Below, one piece after another: positions 50,165 to 55,526 of a stretch of 64,000 nucleotides of DNA. The DNA is from Bacteroidetes bacterium HLUCCA01 (GTDB lineage: Bacteria > Bacteroidota > Rhodothermia > Balneolales > HLUCCA01), in the NCBI GenBank assembly GCA_001314545.1, contig LIHN01000001.1:650180-714179 (forward strand), given 5' to 3'. Position numbers and translations under genes: made by a program. The notes under the pieces were generated by a model. It saw only the letters and a list, made by a program, of their open reading frames with translations, did not search any database and was not told the DNA's origin. Within the stretch, counting starts at the first letter, position 1. Each line of letters starts with the position of its first letter.

Positions 50165-51286
50165 GTGAATATCGCTGACGTACCCACTATTGACATCGCT
50201 GAACTCCAAGCCCGACCGGAGTGGTCGGACTGGAAATGGCAGCTTCGCAACCGCATCCGCACCGCCGAAGCGCTTGCCCGCTGGATTAACCTGACGGAGA
50301 GCGAACTGCAGGCCATTGAAGCCACGAAAGCCTATTTCCGATGGCAGATTACCCCGTACTATGCATCGCTCATGGACCGTGACGATCCGAACTGCCCGGT
50401 CCGCCGGCAGGTAGTTCCGCAAATGGACGAAATGGACGACGACTTCGACATCCTCTCCCTGGATCCCCTCGAGGAACTGGCCCATAGTCCGGTCAAGAAT
50501 CTGGTTCACAACTACCACGACCGCGTCGCGTTTTGTGTGGCCGCCGAGTGCGCGGTCTATTGCCGGTACTGCCTGCGCAAACGCATGGTGGGCGATGGCG
50601 AGTACGCCATGAACAAAACCGAGCTGCAGCAGGGCATCGACTACATCGCCGCCCACCCCGAAATCCGCGACGTGCTGCTCACCGGCGGCGACCCGATGAT
50701 TTTAAACGATGCCAACCTCGAATGGATCCTCTCCCGCCTGCGGGCCATCCCCCATGTAGAGCTTATTCGCATCGGCACCCGCTTTCCGGTGCTGAATCCG
50801 TACCGGTTCACCCCTGAATTCTGCGAAATGATCGGCAAATACCATCCGGTCTGGATTAATACCCATTATAACCATCCCAAAGAGCTCACCGCAGATGCCG
50901 CCCTGGCCTGCGACCGCATAACCCGTGCCGGAGCGCCGCTGGGCAATCAGACGGTCCTGCTCAAAGGCATCAACAACGATGCGGAGGTTTTAAAAACCCT
51001 GTTCAAGAATCTGGTCAAAATGCGCGTCCGGCCGTACTACCTGTATCAGGCCCAGCTCATCGGCGGCACCCGGCACTTCCGCACCACCATCGAAGAAGGT
51101 ATGGCCCTGATGGAGCAGTTGCGCGGTCGCATATCCGGTTTTGCCATTCCCACCTATGTGCTGGACACGCCCCACGGAAAGGTTCCACTCACCCCCAACG
51201 GGTTCAAAAAGCGTGATGGCGACTACATTGAAGTGCAGGCGTACGGCGGGCAGATCTGGCGGGAATACAATCCGGAAGAGGCGTAG
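50165..51286 (+). CDS. kamA: KamA-family radical SAM enzyme (lysine 2,3-aminomutase family)
   Basis: A 373-residue protein starting at GTG. The radical SAM cluster cysteines are Cys129, Cys133 and Cys136 in 'ECAVYCRYCLRKR'; the SAM motif is 'LLTGGDPMILND'; and the PLP-binding Lys is in 'LDTPHGKVPLTPNG'. The family moves the alpha amino group of lysine (or glutamate) to the beta position. It is shorter than clostridial KamA and close in length to EpmB-like proteins, so the substrate is open. Part of its 3' region is copied, in decayed form, 1.3 kb downstream. Confidence 0.85.
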   Translation: MNIADVPTIDIAELQARPEWSDWKWQLRNRIRTAEALARWINLTESELQAIEATKAYFRWQITPYYASLMDRDDPNCPVRRQVVPQMDEMDDDFDILSLDPLEELAHSPVKNLVHNYHDRVAFCVAAECAVYCRYCLRKRMVGDGEYAMNKTELQQGIDYIAAHPEIRDVLLTGGDPMILNDANLEWILSRLRAIPHVELIRIGTRFPVLNPYRFTPEFCEMIGKYHPVWINTHYNHPKELTADAALACDRITRAGAPLGNQTVLLKGINNDAEVLKTLFKNLVKMRVRPYYLYQAQLIGGTRHFRTTIEEGMALMEQLRGRISGFAIPTYVLDTPHGKVPLTPNGFKKRDGDYIEVQAYGGQIWREYNPEEA

Positions 51287-51353
51287 CGACATCAAAAAAC
51301 GCTTCTGACACGTTCAACAACGTTGTACAACGTCATTGCGGCCAAAGTGAAGC
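51278..51353. repeat. kamA 3' end and downstream flank, source of the duplicated segments
   Basis: Bases 51278-51328 (end of kamA and following sequence) recur at 52326-52377 with one inserted base and one change. Bases 51328-51353 (caacgtcattgcggccaaag...) recur exactly at 52713-52738. So sequence that is continuous here is split in the second copy by about 335 bp. Confidence 0.9.
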
Positions 51354-51552
51354 GAATGGGATAAGTGAGGTTGCAATACATACGACAGGATTTATGGTCG
51401 CATTTTCTGCACACGTAAACCGTATAAAACACTTCGAAAACAACCCCAGCCGATTTCGTACTGATCTGTCGTTTTAGTAATTTCAGTAGACGAATATTTC
51501 CAGTTATGCAATCGTTATCGTTTTGAGGTCGATAGATTATATTTTTAGAATC

Positions 51553-51765
51553 ATGAAAGAGATCACATTAAAAATTCCCGACCAAAAGCTTGAGTTTGCT
51601 GTTGAGCTCTTCCATCAGTTGGGTCTTGAAATAGTAGCAGAGCCGTCCATAACGGAAGAGCACAAAGCCATTGTGAGAGAGCGCATCGCGTCATTGAGTG
51701 AAGAAGAATTAATTCCGTGGGTTGAAGCCCGCAAACAGCTATCGTTCAAGAAATCCCGTGGATGA
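51553..51765 (+). CDS. Antitoxin of a type II toxin-antitoxin pair
   Basis: A 70-residue protein from the ATG at 51553; an in-frame start ten codons earlier is less likely. The sequence 'MKEITLKIPDQKLEFAVELF' followed by 'EEHKAIVRERIASLSEEELI' resembles small antitoxins with an N-terminal strand and helices. The stop overlaps the toxin start (ATGA), the usual arrangement. It lies within an AT-richer patch after kamA, unlike the GC-rich neighbours. Confidence 0.75.
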   Translation: MKEITLKIPDQKLEFAVELFHQLGLEIVAEPSITEEHKAIVRERIASLSEEELIPWVEARKQLSFKKSRG

Positions 51766-52073
51766 CCTACCAAGTTGTTCTTGATCATAGAGCATTGCAA
51801 GATATTCAGCAAGCAATCGATTATTATAACAAGCAAGAGCCTGGTCTGGGTGAGCGGTTTGAAAACACAATAAATGATGTGTTTCAAATTCTTGAAACGC
51901 ATCCATTCTATCAGATTCGATATGATAATGTTCGCTGTTTACCGCTCAAGTATTTCCCATTCATGATTCACTATACCCTCAACGAAGAAAACCAATCCGT
52001 TCAAGTGGTAGCGGTCTTCAACACCAGAAAAAACACCACAGAATGGAATAAAAGAATCCGAACTGATAAATAA
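51762..52073 (+). CDS. RelE/ParE-family toxin
   Basis: A 103-residue protein with the ParE/RelE fold pattern: 'YQVVLDHRALQDIQQAIDYY', 'PGLGERFENTINDVFQILE', 'HPFYQIRYDNVRCLPLKYFPF' and 'VQVVAVFNTRKN'. Family members inhibit gyrase (ParE) or cut mRNA on ribosomes (RelE); this sequence does not show me which. It is coupled to the antitoxin by a 4-bp overlap and probably autoregulated with it. Confidence 0.85.
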   Translation: MTYQVVLDHRALQDIQQAIDYYNKQEPGLGERFENTINDVFQILETHPFYQIRYDNVRCLPLKYFPFMIHYTLNEENQSVQVVAVFNTRKNTTEWNKRIRTDK

Positions 52074-52186
52074 CCGGGCATACATGTGCCACTCGTTGAC
52101 TACAGTACCATCTGATAGTGAACGAACCCAAGGAGACCGTGGAGTATCGCAATAGTAAGTAACACTGTTTACTCAAGTCTACGGGG

Positions 52187-52334
52187 TCCGGTCTGGATCA
52201 ATACCCATTATAACCATCCCAAAGAGCTCACCGCGGATGTCACCCTGGCCTGCGACCGCATAACCCGTGCCGGAGCGCCGCCGGGCAATCAGAAGGTCCT
52301 GCTCAAAGGCATCAACAACGATGCGGAGGCGTAA
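52187..52334 (+). pseudogene. Decayed fragment of kamA with internal deletion
   Basis: Bases 52187-52329 match kamA 50845-50987 with six changes in 143 bp (about 96%), four of them altering the amino acid (Ala-Val, Ala-Thr, Leu-Pro, Thr-Lys). At 'gagg' the match jumps to the kamA stop region (51278), a 294-bp in-frame deletion across a 4-bp microhomology, and reading ends at TAA 52332. No start codon or upstream half is present, so it is a remnant. The rest of 52074-52186 shows no recognisable feature. Confidence 0.9.
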
Positions 52335-52377
52335 GCGTCATCAAAAAACGCTTCTGACACGTTCAACAACGTTGTAC
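52326..52377. repeat. Second copy of the kamA 3' flank, left part
   Basis: It matches 51278-51328 with one inserted A and one substitution. After 'cgttgtac' the sequence departs into a 335-bp insert that carries the minus-strand antitoxin-like gene. Confidence 0.88.
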
Positions 52378-52384
52378 GATGATA

Positions 52385-52645
52385 TCACCTTGCTTGTACG
52401 TATCCATTTTCTACGAAAAAAGTGTCCCAGCCTTCATTTTCTTCTGTATTCCAGACCTCATCCATAGCTTTGGTGGATAGTTCGGTTAAATCATTGTCAG
52501 CAAATGAGAGCTCACTCTCCAGAATAAGTTTTTTCACTTGACGCCGAGTTCTTCCAGGCATCGCTTTGTAAAGCTCAAACATGGCCTTAGCCTGCAAATC
52601 AACTGTTTTTTTAGTTAGCATAGTCAACATTTTACCGTTATGCAT
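52385..52645 (-). CDS. Antitoxin-like small protein, no toxin beside it
   Basis: An 86-residue protein; alternative starts at Met6 and Met9. The N-terminal part 'TKKTVDLQAKAMFELYKAM' and basic 'GRTRRQVKKLILESE' precede an acidic end 'TKAMDEVWNTEENEGWDTFF', a pattern common in antitoxins paired with PIN or RelE toxins. The place where a toxin would start is taken by the kamA remnant, so it looks orphaned. It fills most of the insert that splits the second copy of the kamA flank. The assignment as antitoxin is a guess from pattern. Confidence 0.5.
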   Translation of the reverse strand: MHNGKMLTMLTKKTVDLQAKAMFELYKAMPGRTRRQVKKLILESELSFADNDLTELSTKAMDEVWNTEENEGWDTFFVENGYVQAR

Positions 52646-52712
52646 GCTTGAAATTGGATAATAATCAATATAACGATTTCATTGAGGTTTGCCGAATTTA
52701 ACCAGACCGGAG

Positions 52713-52738
52713 CAACGTCATTGCGGCCAAAGTGAAGC
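52713..52738. repeat. Second copy of the kamA 3' flank, right part
   Basis: It is identical over 26 bp to 51328-51353, starting caacgtcattgcggccaaag. Together with 52326-52377 it brackets the inserted antitoxin-like gene. Confidence 0.88.
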
Positions 52739-52763
52739 AAAGGGATGAGCAGAACGCACATTA

Positions 52764-52849
52764 TCGGTCTATGGACAGACCGATTTTTAGGTATATTCGG
52801 TCTGTGTACAGACCGATTTTTACGTATATTCGGTCTATATACAAACCGA
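52764..52849. repeat. Three palindromic repeats with 33-bp period upstream of the AAA ATPase
   Basis: Palindromes start at 52764, 52797 and 52830, exactly 33 bp apart. The middle one, TCGGTCTGTGTACAGACCGA, has perfect 9-bp arms; the outer two have one or two mismatches. Between them is the conserved spacer 'tttttaggtatat'. They lie just before the ATPase start (52878), where operators or a transcript hairpin series would act. A 60-codon frame across them is not convincing as a gene. Confidence 0.88.
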
Positions 52850-52877
52850 CTGACACTGGCATTGATTACCCATAACC

Positions 52878-54068
52878 ATGAATGTACTTTACGAAATCTC
52901 CGAACAACTCATAGAGCGTGTTCCTGAAACGACTATCAGAAACGCAATGTCGTGGCTGCATGAGAGTGGTCGATTTGTAGGCATTAAGGGCGGTCGGGGA
53001 GTTGGCAAGACTACGTTACTGCTCCAATATGCGAAACGGTATCTTCATGACCGAAAAAAACTGTACGTCAGCCTTGACGATATTGAATTCTCGAACCGAA
53101 GCCTGGTCAGTCTGGCTGATGAATTTGTTAAACTTGGGGGCGAGTATCTGCTCCTCGATGAAGTGCATAGTTACGCAAACTGGGCGCAGGAAATTAAGAA
53201 CCTACATGACCGATATCCGGATTTACAAGTACTGTTTACCGGTTCTTCGATGTTGCAACTTAACGAAGGCACGCACGATTTATCACGAAGGGCTGCATTT
53301 TATGAACTACAGGGTCTTTCATTGCGCGAATACATTCAGTTTTCAACCGGAATCGAATTCAGCACGGTTACGCTGACCGATATTTTCGAGCATCACGAAG
53401 CTCTCGCAAGGGGAATATGGAAAAAAATCAAACCCCTTCAGTATTTCAACGAATATTTACGGGGAGGGTATTATCCATTCTACTTTGAACACAAACCCAC
53501 CTACGAAATCCGACTACGCGAGACGATAACCAAAGTAATAGAGTCGGACTTATTGATAGCGACCGGCATTAGCGCTGACAATATGAAAAAAGTTAAGCTG
53601 TTGCTTCACATTATCAGCCAGAGTGTCCCATTTCAGCCGAATATCGACAAGTTGGCTGAAAGGATGGGTATTGGAAAGAATACGTTAAAAGACTACTTCA
53701 GATACCTTGAAATAGCCGGTTTAACCCGGTCTCTTTTCACACAGAAAAAAGGGGTTACACGCCTCACAAAACCTGAGAAAGTGTATCTGCGTCACCCGAA
53801 TTTAATGTATAGCTTGAATCCGGCTGATGTAAATATGGGTTCTGCCAGAGAATCTTTTTTACTGAGTCAGTTACCAGAAAAGCATGAGGTTCACTATCCG
53901 GAGAAGGGCGATTTTCTGATTGATCGTACTTTTTTGATTGAAGTTGGTGGAAAAAACAAGACCTCAGCGCAACTTGGGGATGTCCCGAATGGATGGATTG
54001 CAGCCGATGGAATTGAAGCGGGCGCCGGAAACCGTATACCGTTATGGCTGTTTGGCTTTCTGTATTAA
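52878..54068 (+). CDS. AAA ATPase with DUF4143-type C-terminal region
   Basis: A 396-residue protein. Walker A 'GGRGVGKTTLLLQY' (about residue 39), Walker B 'YLLLDEVHSY', and sensor-like 'VLFTGSSMLQLNEGTHDLSRR' match stand-alone ATPases of the AAA_14/DUF4143 type. The C-terminal part has a winged-helix-like 'AERMGIGKNTLKDYFRYLEIAGL' and a remnant nuclease-like end ('FLIDRTFLIEVGGKNKTSAQL'). The roles of such ATPases are poorly known. AT-rich codon use against GC-rich neighbours and the adjacent toxin-antitoxin genes suggest horizontal gain. Confidence 0.85.
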   Translation: MNVLYEISEQLIERVPETTIRNAMSWLHESGRFVGIKGGRGVGKTTLLLQYAKRYLHDRKKLYVSLDDIEFSNRSLVSLADEFVKLGGEYLLLDEVHSYANWAQEIKNLHDRYPDLQVLFTGSSMLQLNEGTHDLSRRAAFYELQGLSLREYIQFSTGIEFSTVTLTDIFEHHEALARGIWKKIKPLQYFNEYLRGGYYPFYFEHKPTYEIRLRETITKVIESDLLIATGISADNMKKVKLLLHIISQSVPFQPNIDKLAERMGIGKNTLKDYFRYLEIAGLTRSLFTQKKGVTRLTKPEKVYLRHPNLMYSLNPADVNMGSARESFLLSQLPEKHEVHYPEKGDFLIDRTFLIEVGGKNKTSAQLGDVPNGWIAADGIEAGAGNRIPLWLFGFLY

Positions 54069-54164
54069 TAAAACCCGGTTTGAGCTTCGTTAGCACCTGC
54101 ACAGGCAACCGTTCCACGTTAACCCGTTGGGCAACCCACCAACACCGCGACCTTGATCGCCCTT

Positions 54165-55526
54165 TTACCGCTCGGAGCGCAGGGTGAACTCCAGCGCGGC
54201 GGTTCCGCCGGCCGGTACGGGAACTTCAAACACCGCCTGCCCGGCAGTAGGCATGGTATGCGGCAACGAACTTTCGGTCACCCGCTGGGAGGTGTGAATG
54301 GGTCGTGATACCACCACGGTAAGGTCTTCATCGCCCTCATTGGTCAGCGTCAGTCGATTGGTCTGCTCACTGATGCGATCAGAGATCCGGTTCTGGCGCG
54401 TTACGTTTTCCTGCACCAGTACATTAAACGCAGCGCCTGTAGTGAGCCGGATGGTGCTTCCGGGCGCGGTATTGGCGAGCTGGTCCTGACCGATGACCTG
54501 CAGCTGCCCGTCCTGCCGGATGAACATACGCACCAGTCCGGCGGGCAGCACCCTACCCAGAGCCCCGTCGCGGGCATTGTCGATTTCAAACTGGACCTGA
54601 ACCAGTCCGCCGGCGGGAAGTTCCATGCGGCGATCGCTGCTGGTGTAGTGATAGCGTTTGCTCACCGGTACCTCCTGTTGCGGAATCAGAGCCCGTTTGG
54701 CCGTTTCAGCCGGATTCAGGGTGTAGGTTCCCGGCAGGGTAAAGCGCTCGTATTCAAACAACCCCGTCGACTCCTGCCCCCCGTCGAAGGCAACCGATTC
54801 GGCCACGGCGCGCATCATCATATCCGGTCGGGGACCACCCCCGCCCATGTTCAGATCGCCGGCTACCAGATGCACCGTCACATCCCGGAATACCTCGTCC
54901 GAACGGTTCTGCAGGATATTCCATCCGTTGAGCACGGCCATGGTTTCATCTTCGGAGATCTCCAGCGTGTATTCGGTTTCCCATCGCAGGGCATTCATCA
55001 GGTAGTACAGGCTCACGGATTGTTCACCGCGCCGGTCGGCCTGCAAATCGATGTTCAGACGGGGGTACGGTCGACCCACTTCGGGCAAATCACGGGCTGA
55101 AACCCGGTAGCCATCCAGTCCGGGAAGCACCACGCTGCTGCCATCCGAGAGTTCGATGATGATCAGGTTGCTGCGGTAGTGTGTGAGTGTCCCGGAAATG
55201 GAGCTCCCGTCGGTATGGTCGAGGCGGACCTGCCGGCCGACCAGATGCTGCATGACCGACTGAAATCCGGGCTGGCGCATATCGAGGGTGACTTCGGAAA
55301 CGCTTCCGTTTAGTACAGGGAGTACCGAGTTGAACTGCAGGGATGCGGGCAGACCGTACAGGGCAATCTGATTGCGACCCTCATCCAGGCTGAGCGATCG
55401 TGCGTCGTGCACCAGGGTTATCCCGTTCTGGTAGATGGTGAACGTCATTTCACCGTGGTGATCGTGCTGGGCGAGTACAGGCGTGGTCAGCCAGGTTGCA
55501 AGCAGTATCGTGAGCAGGGCTGCCAT
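54165..55526 (-). CDS. DUF4139-domain exported protein
   Basis: A protein of 453 residues from the ATG at 55526, which directly gives a signal peptide (MAALLTILLATWLTTPVLAQ). The frame stays open to 55661 (ATG) and 55703 (GTG), but these add a basic, Thr/His-rich stretch of 45-59 residues before the signal sequence. The body has DUF4139 features: 'SNLIIIELSDGSSVVLPGLDGY', 'VSLYYLMNALRWETEYTLEI' and 'RSDEVFRDVTVHLVAGDLN'. The function of this family is not established. It starts just before the TonB receptor stop, same strand. Confidence 0.75.
   Translation of the reverse strand: MAALLTILLATWLTTPVLAQHDHHGEMTFTIYQNGITLVHDARSLSLDEGRNQIALYGLPASLQFNSVLPVLNGSVSEVTLDMRQPGFQSVMQHLVGRQVRLDHTDGSSISGTLTHYRSNLIIIELSDGSSVVLPGLDGYRVSARDLPEVGRPYPRLNIDLQADRRGEQSVSLYYLMNALRWETEYTLEISEDETMAVLNGWNILQNRSDEVFRDVTVHLVAGDLNMGGGGPRPDMMMRAVAESVAFDGGQESTGLFEYERFTLPGTYTLNPAETAKRALIPQQEVPVSKRYHYTSSDRRMELPAGGLVQVQFEIDNARDGALGRVLPAGLVRMFIRQDGQLQVIGQDQLANTAPGSTIRLTTGAAFNVLVQENVTRQNRISDRISEQTNRLTLTNEGDEDLTVVVSRPIHTSQRVTESSLPHTMPTAGQAVFEVPVPAGGTAALEFTLRSER

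Follow-up and report, generated by a model that had tools for sequence, protein, structure and literature searches.

The ATPase locus and its array of palindromes

The window, by which we mean the whole stretch of 64,000 nucleotides analysed from Bacteroidetes bacterium HLUCCA01, carries three 20-bp palindromes of the form TCGGTYT-N6-ARACCGA directly upstream of a gene for an AAA_14 ATPase. Palindrome 1 (TCGGTCTATGGACAGACCGA, 52764..52783), palindrome 2 (TCGGTCTGTGTACAGACCGA, 52797..52816) and palindrome 3 (TCGGTCTATATACAAACCGA, 52830..52849, with one arm mismatch) were defined from the letters together with a pattern scan, and are annotated without a strand. They follow each other at 33 and 33 bp, start to start, and 28 bp separate the end of the array from the ATG of the ATPase gene at 52878. 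A first-pass annotation had described three 33-bp palindromic repeats; all three are present, but the palindrome is 20 bp long and 33 bp is the period. This period amounts to ~3.1 helical turns, which agrees with the earlier view that the sites are about three turns apart and near helical phase. Five T residues, previously placed behind each copy, follow palindromes 1 and 2 only; after palindrome 3 the sequence reads CTGACACTGG. With up to three mismatches allowed, the fitting pattern is found in the 64-kb window only at the three array places (six strand hits), against a mean of 0.06 hits and a largest count of 2 in 100 dinucleotide shuffles. Without mismatch, CGGTYT-N5-CARACCG is listed at four places in the genome: the three array copies and one site on another contig.

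Further upstream lies a gene at 50165–51286, which we take to be lysine 2,3-aminomutase-like, followed at 51523–52073 by a small gene and a ParE-like gene (PF05016, E 4.5e-7), likely a toxin–antitoxin pair. Between the ParE-like gene and the ATPase gene, 52187–52377 contains duplicated fragments of the gene at 50165–51286 and of its end, one of 143 bp (95.8% identity) and the other of 52 bp (96%). In a sister genome (G001) the two flanking genes are ~120 bp apart and the 2.9-kb ATPase-bearing stretch (window 51287–54165) is missing at that position, reflecting either a gain here or a loss in the sister genome. The missing stretch holds both the ParE-like gene and the ATPase gene; pieces like 51620–51750 and 52000–52073 are found on the far side of the flanking gene in the sister genome.

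Among 40 loci, with flanks of at most 3 kb and many of these ending at contig ends, no neighbour gene was common to more than two, and the ATPase gene therefore appears to stand alone. An operon partner was considered and rejected: clusters that span three or four loci overlap with the gene under study, and the other listed clusters join two loci.

The ATPase and its predicted winged helix

The ATPase gene (52878..54068, forward strand) encodes a protein of 396 residues, in which an AAA_14 domain, a winged helix-turn-helix and a C-terminal domain are recognised from the open reading frame, Pfam and an AlphaFold2 model. The AAA_14 (PF13173) match covers residues 32–152 and scores 98.7 bits against a cut-off of 27; the only other Pfam hits at E 0.001 are two nSTAND models, which are below their cut-offs. 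Of the earlier designation as an AAA/DUF4143 ATPase, the AAA part is thus confirmed by Pfam and the DUF4143 part is not: DUF4143 (PF13635) is absent from the Pfam hits of this protein at E 0.001, and the PF13635 list of its own genome consists of four other genes. NCBIfam and PHROGs searches gave weak hits only, and a sequence search against solved structures returned a single glucosylceramidase hit (E 0.0095), which was taken as chance. A C-terminal motif, FEVGGKxK, is common among 31 aligned relatives and reads IEVGGKNK here.

The AlphaFold2 model, for which the input was the window's protein together with 30 relatives from named contigs, has a mean pLDDT of 90.2 and places helices at residues 256–263 and 267–279, the second of which would be the recognition helix. 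The predicted helix-turn-helix, up to the start of the wing, is encoded by codons 256–286 (53643..53735, forward strand). Lys267 (53676..53678, forward strand), singled out both by the model and by its association with the half-site described below, is the first residue of the predicted recognition helix. The best structural matches are SSO1545 (2fna) and PABY2304 (2qen), each with Z 16.1 and an rmsd of 4.4–4.5 over 262 residues, followed by CED-4 and the NLR resistosomes at Z about 14; this comparison hardly reached residues beyond 319. The modelled protein thus appears to have an AAA+ core followed by a winged helix, as in STAND and SSO1545-type archaeal ATPases, the similarity being one of fold only. 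Since these are its nearest folds, a nucleotide-driven assembly is plausible.

Upstream arrays among related genes

Related genes were gathered from named genome contigs, which gave 39 loci, and from whole genomes. Matches were present in 15 of 59 genomes of relatives at E 1e-30 and, at E 1e-60, in 55 of 394 genomes of the phylum and 29 of 244 of the class; two additional orders from that phylum, also at E 1e-60, gave 162 of 295 and 14 of 296. The loci analysed are the subset of these matches that was fetched. In each case the last 200 bp ahead of the gene and its first 20 bp were scanned for similar palindromes paired at a distance of 20–50 bp (31 spacings).

The best spacing was 32 or 33 bp in 173 of 263 related genes, compared with 8 of 134 regions ahead of other genes at the same loci and 7 of 108 downstream regions. 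In the first set a spacing of 33 bp was best in 47 of 111 genes and 32 bp in 24, while the second set gave 61 and 41 of 152; in the downstream regions the same spacings were best in 5 and 2 cases respectively, which is the level of chance. Forty-two of the 111 upstream regions scored above all 40 of their own dinucleotide shuffles, and only 2 of the 108 downstream regions exceeded those same upstream shuffles. A score of at least 33 was reached by 99 of the 263 family genes, 91 of them at 32 or 33 bp, but by none of the 134 upstream regions of other genes and by 0.26% of 760 base shuffles. A simpler test of self-similarity peaked at the same place (33 bp in 45 and 32 bp in 19 of 114 genes, with 5 downstream regions at 33 bp).

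The earlier note had named a survey of related ATPases as the way to check the array, and genes lacking it as evidence against a role. The same spacing is found in most relatives, while 90 of 263 have their best spacing elsewhere, so that the survey favours the array for the majority and goes against it for the remainder. Judged by these sequence comparisons, the window array is one instance of a widespread upstream architecture. In one family (f26) a 32- or 33-bp pair with a score of at least 30 was found in 2 of 25 genes; nearly all its loci (e.g. L080–L082, L084, L086 and L088) are without the array and offer a natural contrast for an operator role. Two other genes, L059 and L137, have a best spacing of 29 bp with clear half-sites, possibly a variant plan; this lag is seen in five genes scoring at least 33.

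A DUF4143 survey among relatives supplied 27 upstream regions; six of these scored at least 33 and five (L300, L301, L302, L305 and L316) had a best spacing of 32 bp, in a small set for which gene starts were guessed and at least one member, L322, resembles another gene. Self-operators may thus reach into the wider superfamily. Palindrome pairs 22–23 bp apart, perhaps a second operator plan, were seen at L296, L307, L312 and L313 of the same survey.

Register of the array with the promoter

The flavobacterial sigma-A −7 box is reported to be TANNTTTG, spanning −12 to −5 (PMC9723704). This box is present in 107 of 140 operator genes, against 18.9 expected, and its position is tied to the palindromes. 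In 39 of 124 box instances exactly 7.5 bp separate the G of the box from the centre of the 3′ palindrome that follows it, so that the palindrome opens with the TTG of the box. Within the period, 72 of the 124 instances fall in one 3-bp bin and 24 in the next. In 5 of the 107 genes the last box lies upstream of the 3′ palindrome; in the other 102 it lies no further upstream than that palindrome's left edge. Given the span of the box, transcription in those 102 genes would start inside or after the array, which places the array on the promoter and not in the RNA.

In the window, two putative boxes of sequence TATATTCG, one base off TANNTTTG, lie on the forward strand at 52792..52799, where the TCG is formed by the first three bases of palindrome 2, and at 52825..52832, on palindrome 3. 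Both stand in the same register as the boxes of relatives, and the window's transcription start is predicted to lie near 52837, inside palindrome 3.

Residue 267 and the half-site

In 51 genes, a set which includes some close relatives, making the p value optimistic, the identity of the recognition helix is associated with the half-site when identity in the rest of the protein is corrected for (partial r 0.288, permutation p 0.002), whereas the AAA and C-terminal parts show no such association; residue 267 ranks first among 330 columns, again with overall identity corrected for. Among 76 more strictly chosen representatives the recognition helix comes first of ten segments (partial r 0.125, p 0.01; segment 236–255 is close at 0.111). 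Residue 267 is top of 336 columns there, but its r of 0.24 lies within the spread of maxima from permutation, which average 0.17 and reach 0.30. The picture from a mutual-information scan of 112 representatives is mixed: 10 of the 30 top residue/half-site pairs are in residues 256–286, which make up 8.9% of columns; its top residue is 256, and columns 133, 201, 287 and 232, distant from the helix, are also high.

When the genes are sorted by residue 267, Lys is found with CG in 6 genes and TG in 1, and Arg with CG in 3 and TG in 99 (Fisher 3e-7, with 39 of 153 genes unclassed). Among the 112 representatives the corresponding counts are 4 and 1 for Lys and 2 and 70 for Arg (p 5e-5). Where position 267 is W, L, I, V, H or Y, the half-site G is present in 0 of 10 genes, against 116 of 137 with R, K or Q, in a half-site register that was picked with a preference for a G and with some of the non-R/K/Q rows possibly misaligned by an insertion, as seen in L060. 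A register-free count agrees, giving a G in 0.7 as against 3.3 of four half-sites.

The switch is visible at close range in the window's own ortholog group, where the Lys267 genes L009, L052, L053 and L054 have CGGTYT (L054 by eye) and the Arg267 genes L051 and L134 have TGGTTT. Elsewhere, L257, which reads GLNKNTV, has TCGCTTA, and several genes reading (I/L/V)NRNT have TTGCTTA. There are exceptions on both sides: among 12 Lys267 genes, L155 has TG, L154 and L195 have mixed arms, and L037 and L121 are without a clear CG by eye; among Arg267 genes, L104, L207 and L272 have CG, and the unclassed L010 and L067 read CGTATT by eye. The number of independent switches is small, with seven Fitch changes for each label. 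On these alignments the half-site appears to follow residue 267, Arg mostly going with TG and Lys mostly with CG. The suggestion made in the first-pass annotation, that the ATPase might bind the palindromes itself, is thereby strengthened: the survey was positive for most relatives, and the recognition helix tracks the half-site.

Variety of half-sites between genes and genomes

The plan of the palindrome and its spacing are kept among relatives while the half-sites vary, 46 distinct five-base cores being found in 128 genes; the commonest are TGCTT, TGTTT, TGACT and TGCAC. Orthologs keep their half-site, as with CGGTYT in L052, L053 and L064 (the last truncated by a contig end). Paralogs within a genome usually differ; one genome (G013) has TCGGTTT, TTGCTTA and TTGTTGA. 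There was no sign of extra selection for differing operators between paralogs in 45 within-genome pairs, for which similarity was 0.511 as against 0.478 in matched between-genome pairs (p 0.21). In G013 both exact occurrences of the TTGCTTA palindrome are at its own gene, and two more places match it with one mismatch. A role as a global regulator is disfavoured, because the sites are nearly unique in the two genomes scanned, with one stray exact match in the window's own genome (G000) besides the two one-mismatch places in G013.

A proposed model of autorepression

We think it probable that the array is the operator of the ATPase gene, and that the ATPase binds its own promoter and represses itself. 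The architecture, its conservation, the promoter-box register and the association with residue 267 are read directly from the sequence comparison; from these we infer the physical binding and the repression. In the model, a dimer of the ATPase would sit on each 20-bp palindrome by way of its winged helix-turn-helix; the first residue of the recognition helix, Lys267, would read the outer CG in both half-sites. Stacked at 33-bp intervals, the dimers would lie on almost the same side of the double helix, covering the promoter, and the bound ATPase would hold its own expression low. Release, brought about by nucleotide state, a ligand or titration, would then turn the gene on. The dimeric state, the sign of the regulation (repression rather than activation) and any such trigger are likewise inferred.

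The ATPase could also bind the array as an activator, or as a nucleotide-dependent switch that recruits RNA polymerase in the manner of the STAND regulator MalT, which recruits RNA polymerase. The fold, which is nearest to STAND-type ATPases, would suit such a role, as would the 36 of 124 box instances in which a palindrome centre lies 21–27 bp upstream of the box G, a place open to activators. In 39 instances, however, the palindrome overlaps the −7 box itself, where a bound protein would block polymerase, and we regard this reading as unlikely.

Slightly less credible still is a separate host regulator that binds the palindromes, the ATPase being merely the regulated gene. Palindromes suit any dimeric factor, and the whole-column tests favour the helix with moderate specificity only. 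Yet the half-site follows a residue of the ATPase's own, no neighbour gene is shared, the sites are almost unique in two genomes, and an identical called core occurs in just 1 of 45 same-genome paralog pairs.

The earlier note had also raised the possibility that the repeats act in RNA as serial hairpins, and hairpins or terminators in a leader would fit the TTTTT after copies 1 and 2, the ability of palindromes to fold, and the five of 107 genes in which the last box is upstream of the 3′ palindrome, which would then be transcribed. In the other 102 genes the register of the box speaks against this, as do the lack of a T run after copy 3 and the arm mismatches, which comprise 39 G–T and 33 A–C among 1680 arm pairs and have no clear RNA-strand bias. 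A search of 52300–53100 against Rfam 15 returned two weak hits far under the gathering threshold and no family above it, and RNA hairpins seem to us very unlikely. We give the same low probability to the repeats being iterons or marking the ends of a mobile element with one gene, whose ATPase would serve transposition or replication. The gene is missing at the same position in the sister genome and AAA+ ATPases are known to serve transposases (PMC11208146), but the spacing signal is upstream only, the sites are built on the promoter and there is no partner gene.

Comparison with known systems

The best fold matches of the window ATPase, the archaeal AAA+/STAND-like ATPases SSO1545 (2fna) and PABY2304 (2qen), share only 14–18% identity with it, and we know of no operator array for either. 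Several dimers at repeated sites are a feature of NanR, which binds a (GGTATA)3-repeat operator (PMC8012715); this is, however, a GntR-type repressor of sialic acid metabolism and not an ATPase. In a search of open-access PMC papers, covering titles and the openings of abstracts, none named operators of the present kind.

Among regulators of defence systems, CapW and BrxR are WYL-domain repressors of CBASS and BREX respectively (PMC9122588, PMC9122589), and CapW, as a winged helix-turn-helix dimer, binds palindromes of ~20 bp lying over the −10 site of a defence operon (PMC9122588). The autorepression proposed here resembles CapW in having a palindrome over the promoter box, in relatives and, with one mismatch in the box, in the window. 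It differs from both in that CapW and BrxR are separate WYL-domain regulators, whereas the regulator here would seem to be the ATPase itself, acting at two or more phased sites and with no partner gene. No WYL domain is among the Pfam hits of the window ATPase at E 0.001, and it is not a member of the CapW/BrxR family.

A further likeness is to PDC-S01. Six PADLOC profiles of this system match the window ATPase, the best at E 1.2e-25 over residues 31–341, and both consist of a single, very common ATPase gene. PDC-S01 is a phage-defence candidate reported to rank fourth in frequency among the defences of prokaryotes, experimental validation being pending for most such candidates (PMC12988326), and is reported to carry a C-terminal PD-(D/E)XK nuclease domain (PMC12988326, PMC13356809). 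On the strength of the profile matches we group the window ATPase with PDC-S01, hinting at a possible role in defence; its C-terminal domain would, by analogy, be a putative nuclease-like domain. The gene might even be a one-gene immune system, a reading with a small share of the probability, in which the array is a sensor as well as a thermostat and a STAND-like ATPase waits on its private operator. Loss of DNA binding, through a phage trigger, competing sites or nucleotide exchange, would then both de-repress the gene and free the protein to act via its C-terminal domain, each genomic copy having its own address. The descriptions of PDC-S01 in these sources, as far as they extend, are without an operator or regulation (PMC12988326, PMC13356809). 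If the array is indeed the operator of the ATPase, PDC-S01-type proteins would gain a definite target on DNA, a residue predicted to contact it and a one-residue/one-base switch that occurs in nature, together with a large natural set of regulator/operator pairs for the recognition code of the winged helix and possible regulatory parts for Bacteroidota.
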